A stretch of DNA of 64,000 nucleotides from Chelatococcus albus (GTDB lineage: Bacteria > Pseudomonadota > Alphaproteobacteria > Rhizobiales > Beijerinckiaceae), in NCBI RefSeq assembly GCF_030067675.1, contig NZ_JASJEV010000006.1, forward strand, positions 124,001 through 188,000. Direction: 5' to 3'. A model generated the notes under the pieces. It ran no database searches and was not told where the DNA came from. It saw only the letters and a list, made by a program, of their open reading frames with translations. The position numbers and the translations under genes were made by a program. How positions within the stretch are numbered: the first letter of the stretch is position 1; the number at the start of each line of letters is the position of its first letter. This document shows positions 1-47,643 of this stretch, piece after piece.

Positions 1-57
1 GAGCCGCGACATCACCTCGAAGACGGTGGTCGGCAGGCCGGCGAGGATGGAATTCAT
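1..57 (-). CDS. PLP-dependent aminotransferase, N-terminal fragment
   Basis: The reverse strand opens with an ATG at 57 and reads 19 codons (MNSILAGLPTTVFEVMSRL) before leaving the window. This matches the characteristic start of class I/II aminotransferases of the methionine/kynurenine aminotransferase type, whose N-terminus carries an xLPTTxFExMSxLA motif followed by the INLGQGFPD segment (not visible here). It is transcribed away from the RND efflux genes, so the DNA between 58 and 320 is a divergent promoter region. The family call rests on 19 residues only and the exact substrate cannot be inferred. Confidence 0.6.
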   Translation of the reverse strand, partial: MNSILAGLPTTVFEVMSRL

Positions 58-174
58 GACGCGTGCTCCACTTGGCTCTGGCGACGCGCTTTAGCACGTG
101 GGCGCACCCGGTTAGAAGCCGTGTGTGCCAGCGCACATCGCGCGCGGGCGTTTCATGCCGCAGCGCACGATATC

Positions 175-202
175 GAGTGATGAAAATTGACATTCATCAC
201 TC
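175..202. promoter_or_regulatory. Candidate TetR operator upstream of the RND operon
   Basis: A perfect inverted repeat, GAGTGATGAA-N8-TTCATCACTC, has 10-base arms at 175-184 and 193-202. Its inner part TGATGAA-N8-TTCATCA has the same half-site pattern and the same 8-base spacer as TGACGAA-N8-TTCGTCA in front of the tetR gene at 12582. Size and spacing suit a TetR-family dimer. Binding by that TetR protein is inferred. Confidence 0.6.
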
Positions 203-214
203 ATCAGCTAACGT
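187..214 (+). promoter_or_regulatory. Candidate promoter of the RND efflux operon
   Basis: A perfect -35 hexamer TTGACA at 187-192 sits across the spacer of the inverted repeat. About 16 bases downstream TAACGT (209-214) is a weak -10 match. A repressor on the palindrome would block this promoter directly. The gene start at 321 leaves a leader of about 100 bases. Confidence 0.35.
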
Positions 215-320
215 CCCGGCAGACCGGCCCGGTGGCGCGGTCGGCGGGCGGGTCGCTCTCGGTGCCCCCCAACACCCCTCGCCGACCCCGCCGGGCTGGT
301 TCCCTCTCGGGAGCTTCTCC

Positions 321-1445
321 ATGGGCGCCGCCGTCTCCGCCGCGATCACCCCCCGTCTGGTTTCCGGCCTTCGCACCATCGCCGCCGCGGCGCTTCTGCC
401 GCTCGTCCTCGCCGCCTGCAACGATTCCGTCGCCGAGGTGAAACCGAGGAACGAGCGGCCCGTGCTCGTCGCCGCCGTGCGCTACGAGGCGCTGACGCCC
501 GAGCGCAGCTTCGTTGCCACCATCCGCCCGCGCATCGAGAGCGATCTCGGCTTTCGCGTCGCCGGCAAGGTGGCGCGCCGCCTCGTCCAGGTGGGCGACA
601 GGGTGGAGGCAGGCCAGGCGCTCGCCGTGCTGGACGAGACGGATCTGCGCCTGCAGGCCGAGCAGGCGGAGGCGGAGCGGCGCGCCGCGACCACGGTACT
701 TGCCCAGGCCACCGCCGACGAGCGGCGCGGCGAGGAGCTGCGCCGCCGCGGCTGGTCGACGGACGCCGCCTACGACCGGCAGAAGTCCGCGGCCGAGGAG
801 GCGCGCGGTCGCCTCGCCCGGGCCGAGAAGGCCGCGGAGCTCACCCGCAACAACCTCTCCTACGCCACGCTCGCGGCCGATGCCGCCGGTATCGTCACGG
901 CGACGATGATCGAACCGGGCCAGGTCGTCGGGGCCGGCCAGGCGGCGGTCCGCGTCGCCCGCTTAGGCGAGAAGGAGGCGGTGGTCGCCGTGCCGGAGGC
1001 GCTCGTGGAGCGCGCCCGCTCCGGTGCGGCCTCCGTCACCCTGTGGTCGAAGCCCGACAAGCGCTACGCCGCCACCTTGCGCGAGCTTGCGCCGGCGGCC
1101 GATCCGGCGACGCGCACCTACCAGGCGCGCTTCTCGATCCCGCAGGCAGACGAGGCGGTTTCGCTCGGCATGACGGCGACCCTGGTGCTCGCCGGCAGCG
1201 GCGAGGAGCGGGCGGCGCGCCTGCCCCTCTCGGCCCTGTTCAACCAGGGGGCCGGTCCGGCGCTCTGGGTGGTGGACGAGAAGACCGGCGCGCTCGCGCT
1301 GAAGCCCGTGACGGTGCGCGCCTATGAGGCGCGTGATGTGCTCGTCGCGGGCGGCGTCGCCGAGGGCGATCTCGTCGTCACGCTCGGCGTGCAGAAGCTC
1401 GATCCGGCCGACAAGGTGCGGATCGTCCAGGCCATGGCCTTCTGA
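321..1445 (+). CDS. RND efflux periplasmic adaptor subunit (membrane fusion lipoprotein)
   Basis: The product links an inner-membrane RND pump to an outer-membrane channel. I place the start at ATG 321 (374 aa), behind a GGGAG Shine-Dalgarno. The N-terminus is hydrophobic and ends in a lipobox, LAAC, with Cys33 as the likely lipidated residue. It is followed by the barrel-sandwich/lipoyl segment (ARIxxRVxGKVxRRLVQVGDxV type, the VEAGQALAVLDETDL motif) and an Arg/Ala-rich alpha-helical hairpin. Beta-barrel and membrane-proximal domains complete the usual HlyD/AcrA order. The pump gene follows directly. No outer-membrane factor lies nearby. Substrate range is unknown. The open frame extends upstream to 63, but that extension runs through the palindromic operator and is unlikely to be coding. 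Confidence 0.9.
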   Translation: MGAAVSAAITPRLVSGLRTIAAAALLPLVLAACNDSVAEVKPRNERPVLVAAVRYEALTPERSFVATIRPRIESDLGFRVAGKVARRLVQVGDRVEAGQALAVLDETDLRLQAEQAEAERRAATTVLAQATADERRGEELRRRGWSTDAAYDRQKSAAEEARGRLARAEKAAELTRNNLSYATLAADAAGIVTATMIEPGQVVGAGQAAVRVARLGEKEAVVAVPEALVERARSGAASVTLWSKPDKRYAATLRELAPAADPATRTYQARFSIPQADEAVSLGMTATLVLAGSGEERAARLPLSALFNQGAGPALWVVDEKTGALALKPVTVRAYEARDVLVAGGVAEGDLVVTLGVQKLDPADKVRIVQAMAF

Positions 1446-1500
1446 GGCGATGGCGGTGCCGCGGTCGGGGCTCCCGCCGCGAGCGGCATTCGAAGCAAGG

Positions 1501-4500
1501 ATGGTCGGGGCGATGCGCCGGTTCAACCTGTCGCACTGGGCGGTGACGCACCCCGCCCTGGTTCTCTTCTTCATCATCGCGCTCGCCGTCGGCGGCATCT
1601 TCTCCTACCTGCGCCTCGGCCGCGCCGAGGATCCCTCCTTCACCATCAAGGTCGCTGTCGTCACCGCCATCTGGCCGGGCGCGACGGCAAAGGAGATGCA
1701 GGACCAGGTCGCCGACCGCATCGAGAAGAAGCTGCAGGAGCTGCCCTTCTTCGACAAGGTGCAGACCTATACGAAGCCCTCCTTCACGGCGATGCAGGTG
1801 TCGTTCCGCGACTACACTCCGCCCAAGGAGGTGCCCGAGCTCTTCTACCAGCTGCGCAAGAAGCTCACCGACCTGAAGCCCGAGCTGCCGCGCGAGCTCC
1901 TCGGGCCCAACGTCAATGACGAATATGGCGACGTCGATTCCCTCCTCTACATGCTCACCGGCGACGGGGCCGACTACGCCCAGCTGAAGCGCGTCGCCGA
2001 GGCCATGCGCCAGCGCCTGCTCAAGGTGCCGAACGTCACCAAGGTCAATCTCTACGGCGTGCAGGACGAGCGCATCTGGGTGGAGTTCAGCCACGCCAAG
2101 CTCGCGACCCTGGGTATCTCGCCGCAGGCGATCTTCGATTCGCTCGCGAGGCAGAACAGCGTCAATCCGGCGGGCGTGGTGGAGACCGGGGCCCAGCGCG
2201 TCTCCCTGCGCGTCACCGGCGCCCTCGACGGCGCCAGGGCGGTGGCCGAGACGCCGGTGGAGGCGAACGGCCGCGTCTTCCGTCTGGGCGACATCGCCAC
2301 CGTGACGCGCGGCTTCGAGGACCCCTCGGACTATATGGTGCGCCAGCGCGGCAAACCGGCGCTGGGCGTCGGCGTCGTCATGGCCAAGGGCGCCAACATC
2401 CTCAAGCTCGGCGAGGACCTGAAGGCGGCGGTGGCCGAATTCACCGCCGCCCTGCCGCAGGGCATCGACGTCGAGCAGATCGCCGACCAGCCGCTCGTCG
2501 TCGACCACGCCGTCGGCGAGTTCGTGCGCTCCTTCGGCGAGGCGCTCGCCATCGTGCTCTTCGTCTCCTTCCTGTCGCTCGGCTGGCGCACGGGCATCGT
2601 CGTGGCGCTCTCCGTGCCGCTCGTGCTCGCCATGGTCTTCATGGTGATGCTGGCCATGGGGCTCGACCTGCACCGCATCACGCTCGGCGCCCTCATCATC
2701 GCCCTCGGCCTCCTGGTCGACGACGCCATCATCGCCGTCGAGATGATGGTGGTGAAGATGGAGCAGGGCTGGGACCGGGTGAGGGCGGCCTCCTACGCCT
2801 GGACGTCCACCGCCTTCCCCATGCTCACCGGCACGCTCGTGACCGCGGCGGGCTTCCTGCCCATCGGCTTCGCCAATTCCGGCGTCGGCGAATATGCGGG
2901 CGGCATCTTCTGGGTGGTGGCGCTCGCCCTCCTCGCCTCCTGGGTGGTCGCGGTGATCTTCACGCCCTATCTCGGCATGAAGCTCCTGCCGAACTTCGCC
3001 GACAGGCACGGCCACAGCGTCCACGCCGACCCGAACGCCATCTACCACACGCGTCTGTACGAGGCGCTGCGCCGCGTCATCGTCTGGTGCGTGCGCTGGC
3101 GCGGGCTGACCGTGATCGCCACGGTGCTCGTCTTCGTCGCCTCGGTCGTCGCCTTCGGCCGCGTGCAGCAGCAGTTCTTCCCGCTGTCCGAGCGGCCGGA
3201 GCTGTTCTTCCAGATGCGCCTGCCCGAGGGGACGGCCATCGGCGTCACGACCGAGACGGCGAAGACGGCGGAGAAGCTCCTGGGCGACGACCCGGACATC
3301 GCCACCTACACGAGCTACATTGGCCAGGGCTCGCCGCGTTTCTGGCTCGGCCTCAACCCCCAGCTCCCCAACGAGGCCTTCGCCGAGATCGTCATCGTGG
3401 CGAAGGACGTGGAGGCGCGCGAGCGCATCAAGGCGCGCATCGAGAAGGCGGTGGCGAACGGCGCCCTGGCCGAGGCACGCGTGCGCGTCGACCGCTTCAA
3501 CTTCGGCCCGCCGGTGGGCTTCCCTGTGCAATTCCGGGTCGTCGGCCCCGATCCCAACACCGTGCGCGACATCGCCTTCAAGGTGCGCGACGTCATGCGC
3601 GCGAACCGCAACACCGTCGATCCGCATCTCGACTGGAACGAGCAGACGCCCTCCGTCCAGCTCGTCGTTGACCAGGAGCGCGCGCGCTCTCTCGGCCTCA
3701 ACGTGCAGGACGTGGCGCAGGCGCTGCAGACGCTCATCTCCGGCGCGCCGGTGACGACGGTGCGCGACGGCACGGAGAAGGTCGAGGTCGTCGCCCGCGC
3801 GGTCGCCGTCGAGCGGCTCGACCTCGGGCGCATCGGCGACCTCACCGTCACGAGCCGCAACGGCGTCGCCGTGCCCCTGTCGCAGGTGGCGAAGATCGAA
3901 TACGGGCATGAGGAGCCGATCCTGTGGCGGCGCAACCGCGACATGGCCATCACCGTCCGTTCCGACATTGTCGACGGCGTGCAGGCGCCGGACGTCACCA
4001 ACCAGATCTGGCCGAAGCTCGCCGATATCCGCAAGGAGCTGAGGCCGGGCTATCGCCTCGAGGTCGGCGGCGCCATCGAGGAATCGCAGAAGGGAAACGC
4101 CTCGATCTTCGCGCTCTTCCCGCTGATGCTGATCCTCATGCTCACCATCCTCATGGTGCAGCTGCAGAGCTTCTCGCGGCTCGCCCTCGTCTTCCTCACC
4201 GCGCCGCTGGGCATCGTCGGCGCCTCGCTCGGGCTCAACCTCGCCAACAAGCCCTTCGGCTTCGTGGCCCTGCTCGGCCTCATCGCGCTTGCCGGCATGA
4301 TCATGCGCAACACCGTCATCCTCGTCGACCAGATCGAGGCGGACGTGGCGCAGGGCATGATGCGGCGCGAGGCGATCGTCGAGGCGACCGTGCGGCGCGC
4401 GCGCCCCGTGATCCTCACGGCGCTCGCCGCCATCCTCGCCATGATCCCCCTGTCGCGCTCGGCCTTCTGGGGGCCGATGGCGATCACCATCATGGGCGGC

Positions 4501-4659
4501 CTTTTCGTCGCCACCTTCCTCACCCTGCTCTTCCTGCCGGCGCTCTATGCCCTCTGGTTCCGCAAGCGCCTCGACGAGCGCGGCGAAGGCACGCCGGCCG
4601 ACGATGCGGCGCCGCACGGGGCGGAGGCGCCCGTGCCGCTGCGCATGGCGGCCGAGTGA
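1501..4659 (+). CDS. RND multidrug efflux permease subunit
   Basis: This is an AcrB/MdtB-like (HAE1-type) proton-driven inner-membrane efflux pump. It is about 1050 residues, the normal family length. The first transmembrane helix follows FNLSHWAVTHPALVLFFII. Two large periplasmic loops follow, and the TM4 proton-relay pair Asp-Asp is visible in the LGLLVDDAIIAVEMMV segment. The C-terminal half repeats the six-helix pattern. Start alternatives in frame are ATG 1450, 1501 and 1513. The conserved N-terminus begins MRRFNLS, favouring 1501 or 1513. It is co-transcribed with the adaptor (gap of 55 bases or fewer). The candidate TetR operator at 175-202 suggests repression by the regulator at 12582. 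Substrate not predictable. Confidence 0.92.
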   Translation: MVGAMRRFNLSHWAVTHPALVLFFIIALAVGGIFSYLRLGRAEDPSFTIKVAVVTAIWPGATAKEMQDQVADRIEKKLQELPFFDKVQTYTKPSFTAMQVSFRDYTPPKEVPELFYQLRKKLTDLKPELPRELLGPNVNDEYGDVDSLLYMLTGDGADYAQLKRVAEAMRQRLLKVPNVTKVNLYGVQDERIWVEFSHAKLATLGISPQAIFDSLARQNSVNPAGVVETGAQRVSLRVTGALDGARAVAETPVEANGRVFRLGDIATVTRGFEDPSDYMVRQRGKPALGVGVVMAKGANILKLGEDLKAAVAEFTAALPQGIDVEQIADQPLVVDHAVGEFVRSFGEALAIVLFVSFLSLGWRTGIVVALSVPLVLAMVFMVMLAMGLDLHRITLGALIIALGLLVDDAIIAVEMMVVKMEQGWDRVRAASYAWTSTAFPMLTGTLVTAAGFLPIGFANSGVGEYAGGIFWVVALALLASWVVAVIFTPYLGMKLLPNFADRHGHSVHADPNAIYHTRLYEALRRVIVWCVRWRGLTVIATVLVFVASVVAFGRVQQQFFPLSERPELFFQMRLPEGTAIGVTTETAKTAEKLLGDDPDIATYTSYIGQGSPRFWLGLNPQLPNEAFAEIVIVAKDVEARERIKARIEKAVANGALAEARVRVDRFNFGPPVGFPVQFRVVGPDPNTVRDIAFKVRDVMRANRNTVDPHLDWNEQTPSVQLVVDQERARSLGLNVQDVAQALQTLISGAPVTTVRDGTEKVEVVARAVAVERLDLGRIGDLTVTSRNGVAVPLSQVAKIEYGHEEPILWRRNRDMAITVRSDIVDGVQAPDVTNQIWPKLADIRKELRPGYRLEVGGAIEESQKGNASIFALFPLMLILMLTILMVQLQSFSRLALVFLTAPLGIVGASLGLNLANKPFGFVALLGLIALAGMIMRNTVILVDQIEADVAQGMMRREAIVEATVRRARPVILTALAAILAMIPLSRSAFWGPMAITIMGGLFVATFLTLLFLPALYALWFRKRLDERGEGTPADDAAPHGAEAPVPLRMAAE

Positions 4660-4795
4660 GGAGTTCGGAGGGCTGGTCGACGCCGGGCGGAGCGGCTGTT
4701 TCGAGCCGGTTCGGAGCCGCGCTGTCCGGCCATCGTCAGCCGTGCCGTGTCTCGGCCGGCTTGCCAACGGGCGGCGGTCGTGAGACGCCTCGCGC

Positions 4796-5311
4796 ATGGC
4801 CGACGATCCCCGCACCCATCTCGTCCTCGGCGGCGCCCGCTCCGGCAAGAGCCGTTACGCCGAAGAGGTGATTCGCGCCCGTCCGGCGCCGTGGATCTAC
4901 GTCGCCACCGCAGAGGCGATGGATGCGGAGATGGAAACCCGCATCGCCCGCCACAGAGCCGAGCGCGGCGCGGGCTGGGAGACCTGCGAGGCCCCGCTCG
5001 ATCTGGCCGGGGCGCTCGCCCGCGCCCCCGCCGGCGCGGCCGTGCTTGTCGACTGCCTGACGCTGTGGCTCACCAACGTGCTCCTGGCCGAACGCGACGT
5101 GCCGGCGGAGATCGACCGGCTCGTCGCGCTCGTCGCGGGCGAGACGCGGCCACTCGTCCTCGTCGCCAATGAGGTGGGCCTCGGCATCGTGCCGGACAAC
5201 GCGCTCGCGCGCGCCTTCCGCGATCACGCGGGCATTCTCAACCAGCGTCTTGCCGCCGTCGTCGACCGGGTGGTCTTCACGGTGGCGGGCGTCCCCATGG
5301 TGGTGAAATGA
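4796..5311 (+). CDS. cobP: Adenosylcobinamide kinase / adenosylcobinamide-phosphate guanylyltransferase
   Basis: The bifunctional enzyme of nucleotide-loop assembly phosphorylates adenosylcobinamide and transfers GMP to give adenosyl-GDP-cobinamide (called CobU in enteric bacteria). At 171 aa it has the normal length. A P-loop GGARSGKS lies at residues 12-19, followed by the family's CLTLWLTN segment and a VANEVGLGIVPDN motif. It is the first of three adjacent cobalamin genes (cobP, cobO, cobQ; gap of 7 bases, then a 1-base overlap). I see no cobalamin riboswitch in the 136 bases before it. Confidence 0.95.
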   Translation: MADDPRTHLVLGGARSGKSRYAEEVIRARPAPWIYVATAEAMDAEMETRIARHRAERGAGWETCEAPLDLAGALARAPAGAAVLVDCLTLWLTNVLLAERDVPAEIDRLVALVAGETRPLVLVANEVGLGIVPDNALARAFRDHAGILNQRLAAVVDRVVFTVAGVPMVVK

Positions 5312-5318
5312 GGGCCAG

Positions 5319-5933
5319 ATGAGCGAAATCAGCGAGGAAGAAGCCGCCCGCCACCGCGAGAAGATGAAAAAGCGCAAGGCGGTGCAGGATGCCGAGGTCG
5401 CCGCCAGGACGATCGAGAAGGGCCTGCTCGTCGTCAACACGGGGCCGGGCAAGGGCAAGACCACGGCCGCCTTCGGCCTGATGCTGCGTGCCCTCGGGCA
5501 CGGCTGGAAGGTGGGCGTGGTGCAGTTCATCAAGGGCCATTGGGCGACGGGCGAGCGCACAGCCTTCGAACGCTTCTCCGACCTTGTCGAATGGCACACG
5601 ATGGGCGAGGGCTTCACCTGGGAGACACAGGACAAGGCGCGCGACGTCGCCGCCGCTGCCCGCGCCTGGGAGAGGGCGGTCGAGCTCATGGGGCGCAAGG
5701 ACATCCGCCTCATCGTGCTCGACGAGCTCAATATCGCGTTGCGCTACGACTATCTGCCGCTCGCCGAGGTCGTCGAGACGCTGAAGGCGCGACGGCCGGA
5801 CCTGCACGTCGTCGTCACCGGGCGCAATGCCAAGCCCGAGCTCATCGCCGCCGCCGATCTCGTCACCGAGATGATTCCCGTGAAACACCACTTCGATGCC
5901 GGCGTGAAGGCGCAGGCGGGGATAGAGTTCTGA
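5319..5933 (+). CDS. cobO: Cob(I)yrinic acid a,c-diamide adenosyltransferase
   Basis: This CobA/CobO/BtuR-type corrinoid adenosyltransferase attaches the 5'-deoxyadenosyl group of ATP to Co(I) corrinoid. It is 204 aa. The N-terminus is a charged helix rich in Glu, Lys and Arg, and the P-loop GPGKGKTT is at residues 42-49. The family's [12 protein letters not shown] and [15 protein letters not shown] segments follow. The stop overlaps the cobQ start (TGATG). In the aerobic pathway it acts after cobalt insertion by CobNST, before amidation by CobQ. Confidence 0.96.
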
Positions 5934-7399
5934 TGCGTCCTGCCGCGGTGATGATCCAGGGCACGGGCTCGAACGTCGGCAAGTCGCTGCTCGTCGCAGG
6001 TCTCTGCCGCCATTTCGCCCGCCGGGGCCTCGCCGTGCACCCGTTCAAGGCGCAGAACATGTCGAACAACGCCGCCGCCGTGGAGGGCGGCGAGATCGGC
6101 CGGGCCCAGGCGCTGCAGGCGCGCGCCGCGCGCGTCCCGGCCTGCGTGCACATGAATCCGGTGCTCCTCAAGCCCGAGACGGACAAGGGCTCCCAGCTCG
6201 TCGTCCAGGGGCGGCGCTTCGGGCGCCTCGCTGCGCGCGATTTCGGTGCGAAGCGCGAGGCGCTTATGCCCTATGTGATGGAGAGCTTCGCCAGGGTCGG
6301 CGAGGGGGCCGATCTCGTGATCGTCGAGGGCGCGGGCAGCCCGGCCGAGGTCAACCTGCGCGCCGGTGACATCGCCAACATGGGCTTTGCGCGCGCGGCG
6401 CAAGTGCCCGTGATTCTCGTCGGCGACATCGACCGCGGCGGCGTCATCGCGAGCCTCGTCGGCACCCATGCCGTGCTCGACGCGGACGACCGGGCCATGA
6501 TCCGCGCCTTCCTCGTCAACAAGTTCCGCGGCGAGGCGAGTCTCTTCGCCGCGGGCGTGGCGGCCGTCGAGGCGCGCACGGGATGGCCGGGGCTCGGGGT
6601 CGTGCCATGGTTTGCCGAGGCGCACCGCCTGCCGGCGGAGGACGCCCTCGACCTGAACGCGACGGGCGCCAAGCCCGGCGCGCGCCTCAAGGTCGCGGTG
6701 CCCATCCTGCCGCGCATCGCCAATTTCGACGATCTCGATCCGCTGCGGCTCGAGCCGTCGGTGTCGCTCGTGCTGGTGCCGCGCGGCGAGCCCCTGCCTG
6801 CCGATGCCGACCTCGTCGTCCTGCCCGGCTCGAAGGCCACCGTGGCGGATCTTGCCGCCCTGCGAGCCGAGGGCTGGGACATCGACATCATGGCACACCG
6901 GCGCCGCGGCGGGCGCGTGCTCGGCCTGTGCGGCGGCTACCAGATGCTCGGCCGCAGCATCGCTGACCCTGAGGGACACGAAGGGGCGCCCGGCACCGTG
7001 CCGGGGCTCGGCCTTCTCGCCGTCGACACGGTGCTCACCGGCGACAAGACGGTGCGGCAGGTCACGGCCGCCCATGCAGCCACGGACCTCGCCGTGCCCG
7101 GCTACGAGATCCACCTCGGCGTCAGCAAAGGGCCGGACACGGCGCGCGCCCCCTTCCGCCTCGACGGGCGGCCGGAGGGAGCGGCTTCCGCCGACGGGCG
7201 CGTCGTCGGCACCTATCTGCACGGCCTCTTCTCGGCCGATGCCTTCCGTCGTGCCTTCCTCGCGAGCCTCGGGGCGGAGGCGGGGCGGGACCTCGCCTAC
7301 GAGGCGAGCATCGAGGCGACGCTCGACGCCCTCGCCGATCATCTGGCGGCGCATCTCGACACCGAGGCGATCCTCGCCCTCGCCCGCTCGCGCGCCTGA
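5933..7399 (+). CDS. cobQ: Adenosylcobyric acid synthase (glutamine-hydrolysing)
   Basis: The enzyme performs the four remaining side-chain amidations (b, d, e, g) of adenosylcobyrinic acid a,c-diamide. The start at 5933 overlaps the cobO stop and gives 488 aa, a typical length. The N-terminal synthetase domain has the DRTG-like P-loop GTGSNVGKS (residues 10-18) and the [10 protein letters not shown] segment. The C-terminal class I glutamine amidotransferase-like domain has the nucleophile Cys in [10 protein letters not shown] and a distal His in GTYLHGLF. It is the last gene of the small cobP-cobO-cobQ unit and converges on the binding-protein gene at 7421. Confidence 0.96.
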
Positions 7400-7420
7400 A
7401 CCAGGTGGCGGTCAGGAGCG

Positions 7421-8281
7421 TCAGCGCAGCTTGGCGCGAATCTCGGCAGCAAGCGCGTCGATGGCGGCGGGCGTCGAGGGGCCGCCGCAGATGGTGAGGC
7501 GGCCGGGCAGGACGAGACGGCGCTCCGGCGGCACGGCGGCCTTGAGGGCCGGATGCACGAGGAGGGCGGTGCCGTTGTCGATGGCCGCAGCGTCCGACTC
7601 GTCGAGGAGGACGTAGTCGGGCGGCATCGCGACGACGCGCTCGAGCCGCACCAGGCCGCCCTGCGGCAGCCCGAGGCGCGCCTGCATCGGCTCGAGCCCC
7701 ATGTGGCGCAGGAACTCGGCGACGAGGCTCGCCTCGCCCGGCACCCAGCCGCGCCGGTAGAGCACGAGCACGCTGCGTGGCTCGCGCGCGACGTTGTGGC
7801 TGCGCGCGAGCGCCGCGTCGATCGCCGCGATCAGCGCCTCGCCCCGCACCGGGTGGCCGAGCCGGGCGGCGAGGTCGCGGATCTGCGCCCGGCCCTGGTC
7901 GAGGTCGCGCCACGGGTCGAGCACCGCGACCGGCACACCCCGTCGCTCGATCAATTCCCGCCGCGCCCGGCTGCCGTAGCGCCCGGCGAGCACGAGGTCG
8001 GCACCCTCGGTCAGAATCACCTCGCCGCTGCCGCCGTTCACGGGCAGGCTCTGCGCCTCTTGCGCAAGGAAGGACATCGACGCGTCGCGGGCGAGGGGGC
8101 TCAGCGAGGCGATCTGGTTGCGGTCGGCGAGGGCGATGAGGAGCTGGTCGGCGCAGAGATTGAGCGACACGACCCGGCGCGGCGGGGCTTCCTGGGCAAG
8201 CACGGGCGGCGCGGCGAGGCCTAGCACAAGGACGAGGGCGAGCGCACGGCCCAGCCGGAATTTGCGAGCGAAAGGCGACAT
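7421..8281 (-). CDS. btuF: Periplasmic corrinoid-binding protein (ABC importer, BtuF-like)
   Basis: A cleavable signal peptide (Arg/Lys start, then LALVLVLGLAAPPVLAQ) leads into a class III periplasmic-binding fold: RRVVSLNLCADQLLIAL at the N-terminus, then the EVILTEGADLVLAGR and GVPVAVLDPW segments typical of BtuF/FecB-like proteins. I chose ATG 8281 (286 aa). A GTG at 8290 would add three residues. The gene points away from the btuB-btuC-btuD operon, whose riboswitch begins about 100 bases away. Context makes corrinoid the likely ligand, but the fold alone would also fit haem or siderophore. No cobalamin riboswitch is visible on its own side. Confidence 0.8.
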   Translation of the reverse strand: MSPFARKFRLGRALALVLVLGLAAPPVLAQEAPPRRVVSLNLCADQLLIALADRNQIASLSPLARDASMSFLAQEAQSLPVNGGSGEVILTEGADLVLAGRYGSRARRELIERRGVPVAVLDPWRDLDQGRAQIRDLAARLGHPVRGEALIAAIDAALARSHNVAREPRSVLVLYRRGWVPGEASLVAEFLRHMGLEPMQARLGLPQGGLVRLERVVAMPPDYVLLDESDAAAIDNGTALLVHPALKAAVPPERRLVLPGRLTICGGPSTPAAIDALAAEIRAKLR

Positions 8282-8382
8282 GGCCGGCACGCTACGCGGC
8301 TACGCCTGCCCTGTCACCCGCGACGTACTGGGCCAAATGTAGGGCCTTGTGCCCGTCTCGGCAGCGACATATAGATCGCACC

Positions 8383-8594
8383 GACGTTGGTGCCCCGGTA
8401 CGCCCTGGGGTGAAACGGGAACACGGTGGGGATGCGGCCCGACGGCCGGGCGTCCGAATCCGTGGCTGCCCCCGCAACTGTGAGCGGCGAGCGGCGGTCC
8501 GACGAACCACTGGCCCCTGAAGCGCCTGGCGCGGCGGGGTTCGGGAAGGTGGGCCGCCCGCAGGGACCCGCGAGCCAGGAGACCGGCCGGCGTC
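8383..8594 (+). promoter_or_regulatory. Cobalamin riboswitch upstream of btuB
   Basis: The aptamer landmarks appear in order: GGTGCCCCGG near 8389, GGTGAAACGGGAACAC near 8409, GCTGCCCCCGCAACTGTGA near 8464, GGGAAGGTGGG near 8541, and the B12 box GCGAGCCAGGAGACC at about 8571-8585. A closing stem P1 pairs GACGTTGG (8383-8390) with CCGGCGTC (8587-8594), including two G-U pairs. It precedes a TonB receptor and vitamin transporter, the classical target. Adenosylcobalamin or another corrinoid would switch expression off. Confidence 0.95.
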
Positions 8595-8607
8595 AGGCTC
8601 GATGGAC

Positions 8608-8632
8608 GTCCGCCGGTGGGGCGGACAGGAGG
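8608..8632 (+). promoter_or_regulatory. Riboswitch expression platform: hairpin abutting the btuB ribosome-binding site
   Basis: A hairpin GTCCGCC-GGTGG-GGCGGAC (8608-8626) ends directly at the Shine-Dalgarno AGGAGG (8627-8632), six bases before ATG 8638. There is no T-tract, so control is more likely at translation than by termination. The same 14-base core, CGCCGGTGGGGCGG, occurs at the equivalent place before cbtB. Confidence 0.6.
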
Positions 8633-8637
8633 CTCGC

Positions 8638-10623
8638 ATGACGTTCCCGTTGCGGCGCCGCGTGGCGGCGGCCGGCCCGTTGTTCCTTGCGCTTTCCCTA
8701 TCGCTTCCTCTCTCGGCCAAGGCCGATCCGGCCGCAGGCACTGATGCTGCGCTGCCCGAGATCGTGGTCACCGCCACGCGCGGCCCGACCGCGATCGGGC
8801 GCGTGGGCAGCGCCATCTCGGTGATCACCGGCGAGGAGATCCGCCGCGCGAGCCCCAAGAGCGTCGCCGACGTGCTGCGGCGCGTGCCCGGCCTTTCGGT
8901 CGTCGAGACGGGCGGACCGGGCGGCACCACCCTGGTGCGCCTGCGCGGCAGCGAGCCGCGGCACACACTCGTGCTCGTCGACGGCATCCGCGTCAACGAT
9001 CCGTCGGCGGCCGCCGGCGAGTTCGACTTCGTCAATCTCATCCCCACCGATATCGAGCGCATCGAGGTCCTGCGCGGGCCGCAGTCGGCGCTCTACGGGT
9101 CGGATGCCATCGGCGGCGTGATCAACGTCATCACCCGCAGGGGCAAGGGTCCGACCAGGGTGCAGGCGGACGGCGAGGCCGGCAGCTACGGCTCGAAGGG
9201 CCTGCGCGGCGCCGTCTCCGGCGCGAGCGGGCGGCTCTTCTACGCCTTGTCCCTGACGGGCTATGACACGGCCGGCTTCTCGCGCTATGGCGACCGCATC
9301 GGCCGCATTACCCGCGCCTACGGCCGCCCGCTCGAGGCCGACGCCACCGCCCGCTTCGCCGCGACGGGGCGCCTCGGCGTTGCCCTGTCCGACGACGTCG
9401 AGACGGAGCTCGGCGGCTCGACGGCGGTGACCCGGGCGCAGTACGACGCCGCCTTCGGCCCCTATCCGGACACGCCCTCCGCGAGCCTCCAGCGCCTGTC
9501 CCAGGTCTTCTCGCGCACCACGGCCCATGCCTTCGATCATCAACTGAAGAACACGCTGACCGTCTTCGCCAACCGCACGGAGCGCGACTATCGCGACATC
9601 TCCTACGGCTTCGGCCCCCAGCCGCGGGCCGAGTGGCTGAAGAGCGCCTATGTGGGCGACCGCATCGGCGCCGAGTACCAGGGGGACCTCTCCCTCGACC
9701 GCTGGGGCCTCTTCACGGTCGGCCTGCGCACCGAGGAGGAGAGGCTCGTCTCGCACCAGCAGTCCGTCCTGCCGCAGCCGACGCCGCGCATGAAGACGAA
9801 CGACGCACGCCAGACGACGCGCTCCCTCTTCGCCCTCTATCAGGTGTCGCCGGCAGACAATCTCTCCCTCTCCCTCGGCGGCCGCCTCGACGACGTCGCG
9901 AATGCCGACCGCTTCGCCACCTGGCGTGCCACCCTCGCCTACGAGATCCCCGAAAGCGAGACGGTGTTCCGCACCAGCGCCGGCACGGGCGCCAAGGCCC
10001 CCTCGCTCTTCCAGCTCTACGACCCGACCTACGGCACGCCGGGCCTCGCGCCGGAGCGTTCCTTCGGCGTCGATGCCGGCGTCGACCAGACCCTCTTCGA
10101 CGGGCGCCTGAAGCTCTCGGGCACCCTCTTCCTCAACCGCTACCGCGACCTCATCGCCTTCGCGACCGGCGTGTGCCCCGTGACGCAGCCGTGGGGCTGC
10201 TACTTCAACGTGGCCCGCGCCCAGACGAGCGGCTTCGAGCTCGCCGCCGACGCCGAGCTCGTGCCGGCGCTGCTGCGCCTCAAGCTCGCCTATACCAATC
10301 TCGACGCCGTCGACCGCACCACCGACAAGGCCCTGCCGCGCCGCCCGGCGAACGAGGGGCGCCTCGGCTTCGTGCTGACGCCCGCCGCAGGCCTCTCCAT
10401 CGAGCCGAGCGTGGTCTTCGTCGGCGAGCGCTTCTCCTCGCCGGACGAGCGGGACCGCCTCGCCCCCTATGCCCGCCTCGACCTCCTCGCCGAATACGAC
10501 CTGTCGCCGACGGCCTCCCTCTTCCTGCGCGCAGAAAACCTGACGAACGCGCGCTATGAAGAGGTGAGGAACTACGCTACGCCGGGCCGCTCGTTCTACG
10601 CCGGCCTGCGCACGACCTGGTGA
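8638..10623 (+). CDS. btuB: TonB-dependent corrinoid receptor
   Basis: This is an outer-membrane beta-barrel receptor for vitamin B12 or other corrinoids, driven by TonB. The start at 8638 has a strong AGGAGG site and gives 661 aa. A signal peptide ends near residue 29 and a TonB box, PEIVVTATR, lies at about 40-48. The plug domain contains VADVLRRVPGLSVVETG, RIEVLRGPQSALYGSDAIGGVINVI-type motifs, and the C-terminus ends in an aromatic residue (Trp), as barrel proteins do. The cobalamin riboswitch immediately upstream supports the substrate call. It is followed after 7 bases by the permease gene. Confidence 0.93.
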   Translation: MTFPLRRRVAAAGPLFLALSLSLPLSAKADPAAGTDAALPEIVVTATRGPTAIGRVGSAISVITGEEIRRASPKSVADVLRRVPGLSVVETGGPGGTTLVRLRGSEPRHTLVLVDGIRVNDPSAAAGEFDFVNLIPTDIERIEVLRGPQSALYGSDAIGGVINVITRRGKGPTRVQADGEAGSYGSKGLRGAVSGASGRLFYALSLTGYDTAGFSRYGDRIGRITRAYGRPLEADATARFAATGRLGVALSDDVETELGGSTAVTRAQYDAAFGPYPDTPSASLQRLSQVFSRTTAHAFDHQLKNTLTVFANRTERDYRDISYGFGPQPRAEWLKSAYVGDRIGAEYQGDLSLDRWGLFTVGLRTEEERLVSHQQSVLPQPTPRMKTNDARQTTRSLFALYQVSPADNLSLSLGGRLDDVANADRFATWRATLAYEIPESETVFRTSAGTGAKAPSLFQLYDPTYGTPGLAPERSFGVDAGVDQTLFDGRLKLSGTLFLNRYRDLIAFATGVCPVTQPWGCYFNVARAQTSGFELAADAELVPALLRLKLAYTNLDAVDRTTDKALPRRPANEGRLGFVLTPAAGLSIEPSVVFVGERFSSPDERDRLAPYARLDLLAEYDLSPTASLFLRAENLTNARYEEVRNYATPGRSFYAGLRTTW

Positions 10624-10630
10624 GGCGCCC

Positions 10631-11656
10631 ATGAGGAAAACGACGGGGGAGGCTGCGGGGCGCGGCGGCTGGCTCGTGCCCGCGCTCGTGCTTCTCGTCC
10701 TCATCCTCGTCGTCCTGTCCCTCGCGCTCGGGCCCGTGCGGTTGTCGCTCGGCGAGGCGGCAGCGGCCCTCGTCGCGGACCGGGGCGGCGCAAGCCTCAT
10801 CGTGCGCGAGATCCGCCTGCCGCGGGCGCTGCTCGCCGTGATGATCGGCGCCGTCTTCGGCCTCGCGGGCGGGGCATTGCAGGGGCTCCTTCGCAATCCG
10901 CTGGCGGAGCCTTCCGTCTTCGGCGCCTCGCAGTCGGCTGCGCTCGGCGCGGTCGTCGTACTCTACTTCGGCATCGCCGAGGTCTATTCCGCCCTTCTAC
11001 CCGTGGCGGCCATCGCGGGCGCCTTCCTGTCGGTCGCGCTGGTGGTGCTCGCCGCCGGCCCGCGCGCCGGCACGGTGCTCCTCGTCCTCGCCGGCCTCGT
11101 TATCTCGAGCCTCGCGGGGGCTGCGACGGCGCTTGCCATCAGCCTGTCGCCGAACCCCTTTGCGGTCACCGAGATCGTCTTCTGGCTGATGGGCTCGCTG
11201 GAGGACCGTACCATGCGCCACGTGGCGCTCGCCGCGCCCTTCGCGGCGGTGGCCGTCACCATGCTGCTCGCCTGCGGCGGGGGCCTGCGCGCGCTGGCGC
11301 TCGGCGAGGATGCGGCCGCAAGCCTCGGCGTCGACCTGCGCCGCCTGCGCCTGCTCGTCGTCGCCGGCTCCGCCGTCGGCGTGGGCGCGAGCGTTGCCGT
11401 GGCGGGCTCCATCGGCTTCGTCGGCCTCGTGGCGCCGCATCTGGTGCGCCCGCTCGTCGGCCACGACCCGAAGCGCGCGCTCCTGCCCTCGGCGCTCGCG
11501 GGCGCCGCCCTGCTGACGGCGGCCGATTGCGTCGTTCGGCTCGTGCCCTCCACGACCGAGGTCAAGCTCGGCGTCCTGACGGCTCTCGTCGGCGTGCCCT
11601 TCTTCCTCTGGATCATCCTGCGCCGGCGCGCCGAGCTCGCGGAGATGCCCGCATGA
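10631..11656 (+). CDS. btuC: Corrinoid ABC importer permease (FecCD/BtuC family)
   Basis: This 341-residue polytopic membrane protein has the FecCD-family hallmarks: an IRLPRALLAVMIGAVFGLAGG segment after the first helix, GLLRNPLAEPSVFGAS, and the late segment GSIGFVGLVAPHLVRPLVGHDPK, which contacts the ATPase. About ten transmembrane helices are expected. It sits between btuB and btuD, overlapping the latter by ATGA, so the three genes form one riboswitch-controlled unit. The partner binding protein is the divergent gene at 7421-8281. Confidence 0.92.
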   Translation: MRKTTGEAAGRGGWLVPALVLLVLILVVLSLALGPVRLSLGEAAAALVADRGGASLIVREIRLPRALLAVMIGAVFGLAGGALQGLLRNPLAEPSVFGASQSAALGAVVVLYFGIAEVYSALLPVAAIAGAFLSVALVVLAAGPRAGTVLLVLAGLVISSLAGAATALAISLSPNPFAVTEIVFWLMGSLEDRTMRHVALAAPFAAVAVTMLLACGGGLRALALGEDAAASLGVDLRRLRLLVVAGSAVGVGASVAVAGSIGFVGLVAPHLVRPLVGHDPKRALLPSALAGAALLTAADCVVRLVPSTTEVKLGVLTALVGVPFFLWIILRRRAELAEMPA

Positions 11657-12450
11657 GCGCCGGCACGCCTTCCGCCCATTCGCTCACGGCGCAGGACCTC
11701 GCGGTGTCGCTCGCGGGTCGAGCCATCCTGTCGGAGGTCGACTGCGCGCTCCATCCGGGCGAGCTCCTCGCGCTCCTGGGTCCGAACGGCGCCGGCAAGA
11801 CGACCCTTGTCAGGGCGCTCGCCGGGCTTCTTCCTCCCGCTGCGGGGCAGGTGCGGCTCGGCGGGCGCGATCTCGCGGCGCTCGGCCGGCACGAGCGGGC
11901 CCGCGCCATCGCCTATCTGCCGCAGGGCGGTACGGTCGCCTGGCCGCTGCCGGTGAAGGCCGTGGTGGCCCTCGGTCGCCTGCCGCACGGGGCGGAGCCC
12001 GATGCTCTCGCGCCGGGCGACCACGCGGCGGTCGCGCGCGCCATGCGGGCGACCGACATCGAAGCGCTGGCGGAGCGTTCCGTCCTCGCCCTGTCCGGCG
12101 GCGAGCGGGCGCGCGTGCTGCTCGCCCGTGCGCTCGCGGTCGAGGCGGGCGTGCTCCTCTGCGACGAGCCCGTGGCGACGCTCGACCCGCAGCATCAGCT
12201 CGCGGTGATGGACGTCCTCAAGGCGGAGGCGCGGCAGGGGCGGGCGGTGGCCGTGGTGATGCACGATCTCGCGCTCGCCGCCCGTTTCGCCGACCGGATC
12301 GCCATCCTGAAGGGCGGCCGGCTCGTGGCGCAGGGGGCCCCGCGCGAGGTCCTGACGCGGGCGGGCGTCGCGCATGCCTTCGCCGTCGAGGCCCTCGTCG
12401 AGGAGCGCGACGACGGCCTCCTCGTCCTGCCCTGGCGTCTGCCGCGGTGA
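11653..12450 (+). CDS. btuD: Corrinoid ABC importer ATP-binding protein
   Basis: The 265-residue ATPase starts at ATG 11653, overlapping the btuC stop. Motifs are intact: Walker A GPNGAGKTT, Q-loop in AYLPQGG, signature LSGGERARVLLARAL, Walker B VLLCDEP and an H-loop His in VVMHDLALAARF. The FepC/HmuV-like arrangement is typical for FecCD-type importers. It is the last gene of the btuBCD unit. The tetR promoter begins within about 75 bases of its stop. Confidence 0.92.
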   Translation: MSAGTPSAHSLTAQDLAVSLAGRAILSEVDCALHPGELLALLGPNGAGKTTLVRALAGLLPPAAGQVRLGGRDLAALGRHERARAIAYLPQGGTVAWPLPVKAVVALGRLPHGAEPDALAPGDHAAVARAMRATDIEALAERSVLALSGGERARVLLARALAVEAGVLLCDEPVATLDPQHQLAVMDVLKAEARQGRAVAVVMHDLALAARFADRIAILKGGRLVAQGAPREVLTRAGVAHAFAVEALVEERDDGLLVLPWRLPR

Positions 12451-12524
12451 GGATCCGGGCCGGCGCAACGCCCGCTGCGGATCTCCATGCCCCGACGCGT
12501 CTCCGTGAAGCGGCGAGGCGCGTT

Positions 12525-12546
12525 TGACGAATGATGAATTTCGTCA
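12525..12546. promoter_or_regulatory. Candidate TetR operator within the tetR promoter
   Basis: The inverted repeat TGACGAA-N8-TTCGTCA has 7-base arms at 12525-12531 and 12540-12546. It lies downstream of a -35-like TTGACG (12524-12529), and possible -10 elements TACTTA (12547-12552) or TATAAA (12551-12556) follow it. A repressor bound here would occlude the promoter, the usual autoregulatory layout. The half-site and spacer match the palindrome at 175-202. Confidence 0.6.
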
Positions 12547-12581
12547 TACTTATAAACGCGGCCATCTAGAACACGTTCATC

Positions 12582-13178
12582 ATGCGCGACCGCCCTCAGA
12601 GCGATACGCGGGAGCGCATCATCACCGCGGCAGACCGGCTCTTCCGCGAAATCGGCTACCAGAAGACCACGGTCGCGGACATCGCCAGGACGCTCGGCAT
12701 GAGTCCGGCGAATGTCTACCGCTTCTTTTCCTCCAAGAAGGCGATCAACGAGGCCGTCACGGCCCGCTGCACGGCGGAGATCCGCATGCGGCTGGAGGCG
12801 GTCGCGGCTTCCGGCAGGCCGGCGGCGGAGCGCATGCGCGCTCTGCTTCTCACGGCGCACCAGTCCGTGCTCGAGCTCGGCGTCACCGACGCCAAGATGC
12901 AGGAGATGATCGCCGTGGCGATGGCCGAGAGCTGGGGTGTCATCCGCGCCCATATCGAGGAGGTCGACGCGATCATCACGCGCGTACTGCGCGACGGCGT
13001 TGCCTCGGGCGAGTTCGTCCCCTCGGATCCTGAGGTGACGGGTCCCTGCATCCGGGCCGCCATGATGCGCTTCTGCCACCCGGGGCTCCTGACCCAGTGT
13101 CACGACATCCCGCGACCGACGGTCGAGCAGCAGGCCGACTTCATCCTGTCGGCGCTCGGTCACCACGCCCGGTCCTGA
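12582..13178 (+). CDS. TetR/AcrR-family transcriptional repressor
   Basis: This 198-residue regulator has an N-terminal helix-turn-helix, with [20 protein letters not shown] placed where TetR proteins put it (about residues 28-47), followed by KKAINEAV. The C-terminal ligand domain is variable, as usual. The operator in its own promoter and the matching site before the RND genes suggest it represses both. TetR regulators that control RND pumps are a common pairing, though here they are separated by the cobalamin genes. No strong ribosome-binding site precedes the ATG. Its 3' end overlaps the 3' end of rfbA by 19 bases on the opposite strand. Confidence 0.88.
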
Positions 13179-14038
13179 CGGGCGATTCGGCTGAGATAGG
13201 CCCCGTAGCTCGACTTCGCCACCGCCTCGGCCAGCCGCAGCAGCTGCGCGGTGTCGATATAGCCCATGCGCCAGGCGATCTCCTCGATGCAGCCGATGCG
13301 CAGGCCCTGACGCTCCTCGACGACGCGCACGTACTGCGCCGCCTGCAGCAGGCTCTCGTGCGTCCCGGTGTCGAGCCAGGCATAGCCGCGCCCGAGCTTC
13401 TCCACCATGAGGTCGCCGGCCGCGAGATAGGCGCGGTTGACGTCGGTGATCTCGAGTTCGCCGCGAGCCGAGGGCGAGAGGCCTGCGGCGATGTCGACGA
13501 CGCGGTTGTCATAGAAATAGAGCCCCGTCACCGCCCAGTTGGAGGCAGGCTCCTTCGGCTTCTCGATGATGTCGGCGGCGCGCCCGATCTCGTCGAAGGT
13601 CACGACGCCGAAGGCTTCCGGGTTCGACACCCAATAGGCGAAGATGGTGGCGCCCGAGCGCCGCCGCGCCGCCGCCTGGACGCGCTCGACGAGGCCGTGG
13701 CCGTGGAAGATGTTGTCGCCGAGCACGAGGGCGACGCTGTCGTCGCCGATGAAGTGGCGGCCGATGCGGAAGGCCTCGGCGATGCCGTTCGGCTCGGCCT
13801 GCGCGGCATAGGCGAGGGAAAGGCCGAGCTGCGAGCCGTCGCCGAGGAGCGCCTGGAACAGCGGCAGGTCGCGGGGGGTGGAGATGACGAGCATCTCGCG
13901 GATCCCGGCGAGCATCAGCGTCGACAGGGGATAGTAGATCATCGGCTTGTCGTAGACGGGCATGATCTGCTTCGAGACCACCGCCGTCACCGGGTGCAGC
14001 CGGGTGCCGGAGCCGCCTGCGAGCACGATGCCCTTCAT
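13160..14038 (-). CDS. rfbA: Glucose-1-phosphate thymidylyltransferase
   Basis: The enzyme makes dTDP-glucose from dTTP and glucose-1-phosphate, the first step of dTDP-L-rhamnose synthesis. At 292 aa it has the expected length. The nucleotide-binding start [16 protein letters not shown] is followed by [20 protein letters not shown], and [10 protein letters not shown] is also present. It lies downstream of rfbD, rfbB and rfbC on the same strand (43 bases after rfbD), making a four-gene dTDP-rhamnose operon. Its stop codon lies inside the 3' end of tetR. Confidence 0.96.
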
Positions 14039-20910: not shown

Positions 20911-20995
20911 TTATCGCTACCGCAAAAAAGCCGCAAAGGAGGTGCGCTGGCGCACATGTTGGTGACCCGATCGGGCTCCGTCCGCACCCCGGCCA

Positions 20996-47294: not shown

Positions 47295-47455
47295 TTAGAT
47301 CTTTATTCTGGAATGATAGGGGAGGCGGGACGGAGCGTCAACGGTCTCCTGTCGAGGCGCGCGGCCAAGGGAAACCGGTTGGTGCCGGCGTTTCCGCACT
47401 TGTGCTCGACGAAGGCGGCATTGACTTGCCGCGGCGAAACGCCCAAACGAGAGAG

Positions 47456-47627
47456 CGACGGTCCTCTGTGAGGTGAAAAGGGAATCCGGTGCGGGCCTCG
47501 CGCCCAAGACCGGAGCTGCCCCCGCAACTGTGAGCGGCGAGCCTGGTGCCGAGAAAAGCCACTGGATCCTCGGGATCCGGGAAGGTGGTGCCAGGCAGCG
47601 ACCCGCGAGCCAGGAGACCTGCCGTCG
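47456..47627 (+). promoter_or_regulatory. Cobalamin riboswitch upstream of cbtB
   Basis: Landmarks in order: GAGGTGAAAAGGGAATCCGGTG near 47470, GCTGCCCCCGCAACTGTGA near 47517, GCCACTGGATCC near 47559, GGGAAGGTGG near 47578, and the B12 box GCGAGCCAGGAGACCTGCC near 47606. A closing stem pairs CGACGG (47456-47461) with CCGTCG (47622-47627). It leads the cobalt uptake and corrin synthesis genes, so cobalamin would repress the start of this block. Confidence 0.95.
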
Positions 47628-47643
47628 GAGATTGTACCCGCAG

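Follow-up and report, generated by a model that had tools for sequence, protein, structure and literature searches.

One probable operator at the promoters of a TetR-family regulator and an RND pump separated by cobalamin genes in Chelatococcus albus

The window analyzed here is a 64,000-nt stretch of Chelatococcus albus contig NZ_JASJEV010000006.1 (positions 124,001-188,000; coordinates below are relative to the window). On its plus strand lie, in order, an operator (operator 1), genes for the periplasmic adaptor and permease of a resistance-nodulation-division (RND) pump, and the vitamin B12 (cobalamin) genes cobU, cobO and cobQ. After cobQ come a btuF-like gene on the minus strand, a cobalamin riboswitch, btuB, btuC, a btuD-like gene, a second operator (operator 2) and tetR, which encodes a TetR-family regulator. 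Judged from the sequence, it is very probable that this TetR represses both its own promoter and that of the MexK-like RND pump by way of the same operator. Systems in which a TetR represses both itself and an RND pump are known, and the one described here would be a split form of them.

The operator pair in the window and in relatives

Operator 1 reads TGATGAA-AATTGACA-TTCATCA (178-199) and is the core of a perfect palindrome with 10-bp arms at 175-202. Its spacer holds the TTGACA (187-192) of the predicted pump promoter (187-214, plus strand), in which 16 nt separate this -35 element from TAACGT at 209-214; 56 of 65 relatives have TTGACA at the same place in the operator spacer. Operator 2 reads TGACGAA-TGATGAAT-TTCGTCA (12525-12546; by parts, TGACGAA-TGATGAA-T-TTCGTCA). 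It overlaps the -35 element TTGACG (12524-12529) and is flanked by the -10 element TACTTA (12547-12552) of the predicted tetR promoter, with 35 bp between operator and the tetR ATG at 12582. Both palindromes and their common architecture had been put forward in an earlier sequence-only reading of this DNA, and both were borne out. Upon a search of the whole genome (4,005,401 bases, 37 contigs) the exact pattern TGAYGAA-N8-TTCRTCA was found at these two promoters only; that reading had proposed the search. There were no sites with one mismatch and eight with two, and a reversed-pattern control gave four in all. Seven of the eight lie beneath open frames longer than 300 codons and were rejected as further targets; the remaining one (L007, G000:C31:93896) lies between genes that by their translations are major facilitator-like and LysR-like. 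The same operator is thus present at the regulator and pump promoters and unique in the genome, as expected of an autoregulated local repressor of an RND pump.

Relatives came from a scan in which eight aligned TetRs served as the query; the best 80 of the 556 loci it gave were used. A target gene was visible in 65 (38 with the adaptor, 27 with an aminotransferase gene plus cobQ). The 15 loci left out were three from Chelatococcus in which the pump is elsewhere, two Bosea-type and four other incomplete loci, and six from Methylobacterium. TGA-N16-TCA was counted as a target site if it lay no more than 420 bp upstream and at least 4 of its 7 arm positions could pair; such a site was present at all 65 loci, as compared with 63 of 1300 shuffles and 31 of 1895 other windows. 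When at least 6 of 7 arm pairs were demanded the site was retained at 57 of the 65 loci, the figures for shuffles and other windows of the same loci falling to 5/1300 (0.4%) and 2/1895. The site of tetR itself (at least 4 of 7 arm pairs within 220 bp) was found at all 33 loci in which tetR lies behind B12 genes (29/29 behind cobQ and 4/4 behind btuD) and at 3 of the 41 loci in which tetR directly follows the RND gene. Such scarcity would follow if, in the compact operon, transcription from the pump promoter also serves tetR.

Gene order in relatives, a comparison the sequence-only reading had suggested, supported the pairing of regulator and pump. The commonest arrangement, operator-adaptor-RND-tetR, accounts for the 41 of 80 loci just mentioned, and at 12 more distant loci tetR is the first gene of a tetR-adaptor-RND operon. 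All 12 of these operons have TGA-N16-TCA (at least 4/7 pairs) no more than 90 bp upstream of the TetR match, with at least 6/7 pairs in six. Pump and tetR lie on different contigs in C. sambhunathii, C. caeni and C. composti, the aminotransferase gene accompanying the pump, and the site is present at both places. Hence the regulator-pump pairing, also expected of an autoregulated local pump repressor, is kept in relatives.

A pattern search of 100 genomes gave a similar picture. TGAYRAA-N8-TTYRTCA occurred at 19 places in the 27 genomes with the TetR (E <= 1e-30) and at 18 places in the 73 genomes without it, whereas the reversed-pattern control gave four over the same 100 genomes. Fourteen of the 19 places precede tetR, the adaptor gene or the aminotransferase/cobQ pair; four of the other five loci were read and had none of these genes. 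The 14 places read among the 18 in TetR-less genomes had no TetR, adaptor, RND, aminotransferase, cob or btu genes nearby. This pattern, a strict one, was absent from 12 of the 27 TetR genomes, including C. composti, the sites of which deviate.

The 65 target sites also define the anatomy of the operator. Positions 4 and 19 were symmetric in 34 sites (19 C/G, 15 T/A) and mixed in 29 (16 T/G, 13 C/A), with A at position 4 in the remaining two. As Y at the one position and R at the other are exchanged almost freely, the symmetric T/C change between the half-sites of the two window operators, to which the sequence-only reading had drawn attention, carries no weight, and a symmetric one-base code distinguishing the operators was discarded. 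TTGACA closes the spacer at 56 of the 65 target promoters, which places the operator over the -35 element. In all 36 tetR-side sites of relatives TTGACG overlaps with the left arm, and in 31 of the 36 the spacer forms another half-site, TGAYGAA followed by A or T. The tetR-side site is therefore a half-site-N1-half-site palindrome together with one further half-site. Conserved letters extend beyond the arms: a T stands seven bases ahead of the left arm in 65/65 target sites, and a TCA seven bases past the right-arm TCA in 27/27 cobQ sites, this being looser in adaptor sites. These extra letters look as if more than one dimer might bind. PMC6018408 describes both one-base-centered operators and the two-dimer QacR type within the TetR family.

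The regulator itself (12582-13178, plus strand) has an N-terminal TetR_N helix-turn-helix (PF00440, 52.1 bits; cut-off 24) and a C-terminal, ligand-type TetR_C_27 domain (PF17935, 77.9 bits; cut-off 26.1), which place it in the TetR family. The stretch S-x-x-N-[VI]-Y-R, which we take to be part of the recognition helix, is present in 29 of 30 TetR translations. In a quick maximum-likelihood tree of 97 TetRs, rooted on the 12 proteins of the tetR-first operons and with SH-aLRT values as the sole support measure, the window TetR grouped with those of three congeners (support 99) and the 29 TetRs of Bosea-type cobQ loci formed one clade (99); the branch between the 12 tetR-first proteins and the rest had a support of 96. 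Pump-associated TetRs surround the B12-associated ones in this tree, in which several branches are long and the deeper joins unsure.

Given these sites, a mechanism can be proposed. TetR would bind the shared operator at the pump and tetR promoters and repress both. RNA polymerase would be blocked at each, since the operator lies over the predicted -35 element of the pump promoter and fills the space between the predicted -35 and -10 elements of the tetR promoter, and a ligand would release the repressor. The two promoters would be split because tetR, in relatives mostly the last gene of an adaptor-RND-tetR operon, came to lie behind the B12 genes with a promoter and an operator copy of its own.

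The cobalamin genes and the competing explanations

In Bosea the same operator pair flanks cobQ, at cobQ and at tetR. The aminotransferase gene and cobQ diverge around the operator in all 27 Bosea-type loci that have both genes, with no adaptor or RND gene between them. These 27 sites all hold TTGACA in the spacer, and 26 have at least 6 of 7 arm pairs. The TetR was found at E <= 1e-40 in 54 of 61 Bosea-group genomes, and exact TGAYGAW-N8-TTCRTCA in 52 of those 54 and in one of the seven without the TetR. RND relatives of at least 70% identity were present in seven of the 61 genomes (42 had a match at E <= 1e-100). In three of these seven the RND gene belongs to a separate operator-adaptor-RND-tetR2 module whose operator is the same; in the remaining four a TetR gene precedes the pump, and no site reaches 5/7 arm pairs. 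In one Bosea genome the operator plus aminotransferase gene (G014:C51:35473) and cobQ plus tetR (start of G014:C12) are on two contigs, these pieces sitting near contig ends with insertion-sequence-looking DNA. Microvirga massiliensis has the order operator-adaptor-RND-btuC-btuD-operator-tetR.

Several observations weigh against repression of both promoters by the window TetR. The tetR-side sites of the three congeners have only 5/7 arm pairs, as does the pump-side site of C. composti. The 80 loci were the best scoring and are interdependent, 29 coming from one Bosea-type clade and many from Bradyrhizobium. The six Methylobacterium TetRs had neither a pump nor a cob gene in the stretch read, and no tetR site (0/6). 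Finally, in the three Bosea genomes with a separate pump module a second TetR (40-41% identical) is encoded behind the pump with the same operator, and hence a paralogue could bind. That another TetR paralogue is the main binder of the pump operator is nevertheless improbable, as a search of the window genome at E <= 1e-30 gave a single match to this TetR, and as across genomes the sites near these genes go together with it. Less probable still, to the point of being negligible, is an origin of the palindromes as chance inverted repeats. A search of the window alone with up to three mismatches gave two matches, both exact, and no surplus over shuffles (mean 2.07), but the exact genome-wide uniqueness and the conservation at 65 of 65 loci rule chance out.

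The most serious competitor, to which we assign slightly less than an even chance, holds that TetR controls only itself and the pump, that cobU-cobO-cobQ and the btu genes are bystanders under separate control and that the Bosea cobQ site is a relic of a pump deletion. Such a deletion is plausible given that Bosea-type loci, M. massiliensis and the window share the aminotransferase gene on one side, and that past tetR there are genes of polysaccharide type in the window, in L144 and in L137, the single Bosea locus inspected in this respect. The bystander status is favored by the riboswitch that btuB has of its own and by the rarity of the window arrangement: among 30 cobU loci read (158 of 199 family genomes searched have cobU) only the window has an RND gene beside cobU, and in C. 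sambhunathii, C. caeni and C. composti the gene order pump-cobU is absent. Moreover, four genomes of the genus group g16 (L237, L238, L240, L247) have the aminotransferase gene diverging directly from cobU, followed by cobO and, where in reach, cobQ, with no pump and no TGA-N16-TCA candidate; in two g16 genomes searched no TetR was found at E <= 1e-30. Bradyrhizobium-type pump loci, read up to 7 kb on each side, had no cob genes, which together with the scarcity of RND genes beside cobU argues against a deep functional link to B12. However, a relic should decay, yet the site before cobQ is retained in 27/27 Bosea-type loci with the pairing and TTGACA given above. Within the window cobU follows the RND gene on the same strand after 136 bp, and a crude scan predicted no terminator between them; thus cobU-cobO-cobQ are probably repressed together with the pump.

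Descent from a single rearranged locus suffices to explain the neighborhood, but the retention of the operator before cobQ still calls for a reason, and the B12 genes may belong to the regulon. Repression of tetR and pump through a shared operator, as the sequence-only reading had it, is well supported by the uniqueness and conservation of the site, but that reading's treatment of the B12 genes as a neutral spacer fits poorly with an operator over the promoter before cobQ in Bosea.

Gene content of the window and the structured 5' leader

Genes were named from domain and profile models (Pfam, NCBIfam) judged against their cut-offs, an Rfam scan and translations. At the left edge (1-57, minus strand) is the 5' end of the divergent aminotransferase gene, which extends left past the window and encodes a pyridoxal phosphate enzyme of the PRK08912 type (NF006488, 675 bits, cut-off 498; L106 3904-5058). 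The adaptor gene (membrane fusion protein; 321-1445, plus strand, the start codon being our choice) matched TIGR01730 with 215 bits (cut-off 94.9). The permease gene (1447-4659, plus strand; PF00873) reached the cut-off of no NCBIfam RND permease model. Its product is closest among solved structures to MexK (9xwg_A, 1094 bits; then 20yy_A, 1093, and 6vej_A, 911), which makes the pump MexJK-type. Profile matches identified cobU, cobO and cobQ (4796-7399, plus strand), and PF01497 the btuF-like binding protein gene (7421-8290, minus strand). The riboswitch before btuB (8371-8605, plus strand) matched RF00174 with 96.2 bits. The uptake genes btuB, btuC and btuD-like (8602-12450, plus strand) owe their names to context, their best models falling under the NCBIfam cut-offs. 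Polysaccharide-type genes beyond tetR (rfbA, rfbD and rfbB from translations) are on the opposite strand. A generic promoter scan of 1-13300 returned zero promoters. Elsewhere in the window a second cobalamin riboswitch lies at 47442-47640 (RF00174, 122.2 bits).

A second palindrome unrelated to the operators, TGTGTGCCAGCGCACA (TGTGYGCCAGCGCACA), lies at 122-137, 40 bp upstream of operator 1. It recurs with 13-16 of its 16 letters at four Chelatococcus pump loci (window included) and four g16 cobU loci, and is also present in two Hyphomicrobiales metagenome-assembled genomes (L135, L143); a 13/16 match is at 20941-20956. From this recurrence it looks like the site of another regulator.

The Bosea cobQ leaders form a long predicted hairpin that begins about 36 nt after the start of TTGACA (e.g., L125:5128-5205) and has an apical CUUCGCCCCUUUG identical in 27 of 27. 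Both-side changes that keep pairing were seen in 11 of 23 pairs, and 98.2% of the alignment cells pair. The covariation score was 0.442, as compared with 0.270 for shuffled alignments (0/500 reached 0.442) and 0.065-0.099 for slid ones, with the caveats that related sequences can exceed such shuffles and that the same alignment had served to predict the structure. Four single Bosea leaders gave fold z scores of -3.87 to -5.93. A covariance model of these leaders (R1) matched 53 of 61 Bosea-group genomes, some of which were model sources; the eight without a match comprise the seven lacking TetR and one genome, in 310 contigs, that has it. Outside Bosea R1 gave one weak match (E 0.094) among 149 relatives, two other matches being Bosea.

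The pump mRNA of the window has a predicted 5' leader hairpin (222-301, plus strand). The stretch 219-312 folds better than its own shuffles (z -3.64), and the 17-base apical CGCTCTCGGTGCCCCCC at 254-270 is identical in the window and three congeners. A similar apical stretch is found in a hairpin before cobU in the four g16 genomes. One congener stretch, L060:1356-1460, was cut within the stem and folded no better than shuffles (z -0.28). Recut congener stretches gave a predicted hairpin, in folds made without shuffle comparison; the folds of L058 and L060 vary with the length given. A second model (R2) was built from eight Chelatococcus and g16 sequences with only the outer stem imposed, the inner stems being poorly aligned. 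It matched the window, a model source, at 225-305. Over 298 family genomes R2 found only its eight source genomes (by construction) and an extra copy in C. composti. This extra hairpin (L269/L281, G003:C12:15251-15318) lies between convergent NagA-like and dihydroxyacetone-kinase-like genes, and the lack of a cob neighbor speaks against a purely cob-specific role. R2 matched none of seven Bosea-type loci given to it and none of the Microvirga loci. Thus, a single model for Bosea and Chelatococcus leaders was abandoned, and only their position and layout speak for homology of the two types.

An Rfam search of four loci (three Chelatococcus, one Bosea) at E <= 5 gave no match, and one of the four g16 loci at E <= 10 gave four matches, none at the leader and none reaching the gathering score; an identity with a known riboswitch was therefore set aside. 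We read the predicted hairpins as a conserved, undescribed 5' leader that belongs to the aminotransferase/cob region independently of TetR. A more ambitious proposal, which we regard as unlikely, is that operator, leader RNA and TetR make up a corrinoid-control module. In such a module TetR would sense a corrinoid-related compound, the pump would export that compound or a by-product, and the leader would be a new cob cis-regulatory RNA carried along when the pump came before cobU and when it was lost in Bosea.

Significance and comparison with known systems

The comparison supplies a precise candidate operator for a family of Hyphomicrobiales RND-pump repressors. It also suggests how a repressor may change its target, which is a pump operon in Bradyrhizobium-type loci, probably a pump plus B12 genes in the window, and cobQ without a pump in Bosea-type loci. 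The Bosea cobQ operator pair and the structured leader go beyond the sequence-only reading, and the leader, which covaries strongly, is a candidate regulatory RNA in front of a gene for B12 biosynthesis. Should an efflux-pump repressor indeed govern B12 synthesis, this would be a control layer besides the cobalamin riboswitch. Among the matches listed in the literature (titles and abstract openings, subscription journals being thinly covered) there was no paper on a TetR controlling cobQ together with an RND pump.

The regulator of the Pseudomonas aeruginosa MexJK RND pump is MexL, encoded beside the pump. PMC6018408 describes MexL as a TetR-family member and MexJK as lacking an outer-membrane gene of its own. 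The window resembles this system, compared by description in the case of MexL, in combining a TetR with an adaptor-RND pair having no adjacent outer-membrane gene, and in a permease whose nearest solved structure is MexK. It differs in that the regulator gene is 12 kb from the pump, behind B12 genes. FrrA/FreCAB of Bradyrhizobium japonicum, as described in PMC4070704, is likewise a rhizobial TetR with an RND pump, but FrrA adjoins its pump. The new leaders share with the RF00174 cobalamin riboswitch a position in the 5' leader of B12 genes; unlike it, they measure about 75-80 nt and gave no match to any Rfam family. Finally, the long operator with a wide spacer, having conserved letters 7 bp outside its arms, recalls the QacR-type dimer of dimers described in PMC6018408, a likeness limited to half-site spacing. 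The window differs from that type in that its tetR-side site also holds a half-site-N1-half-site palindrome, the ordinary TetR form.

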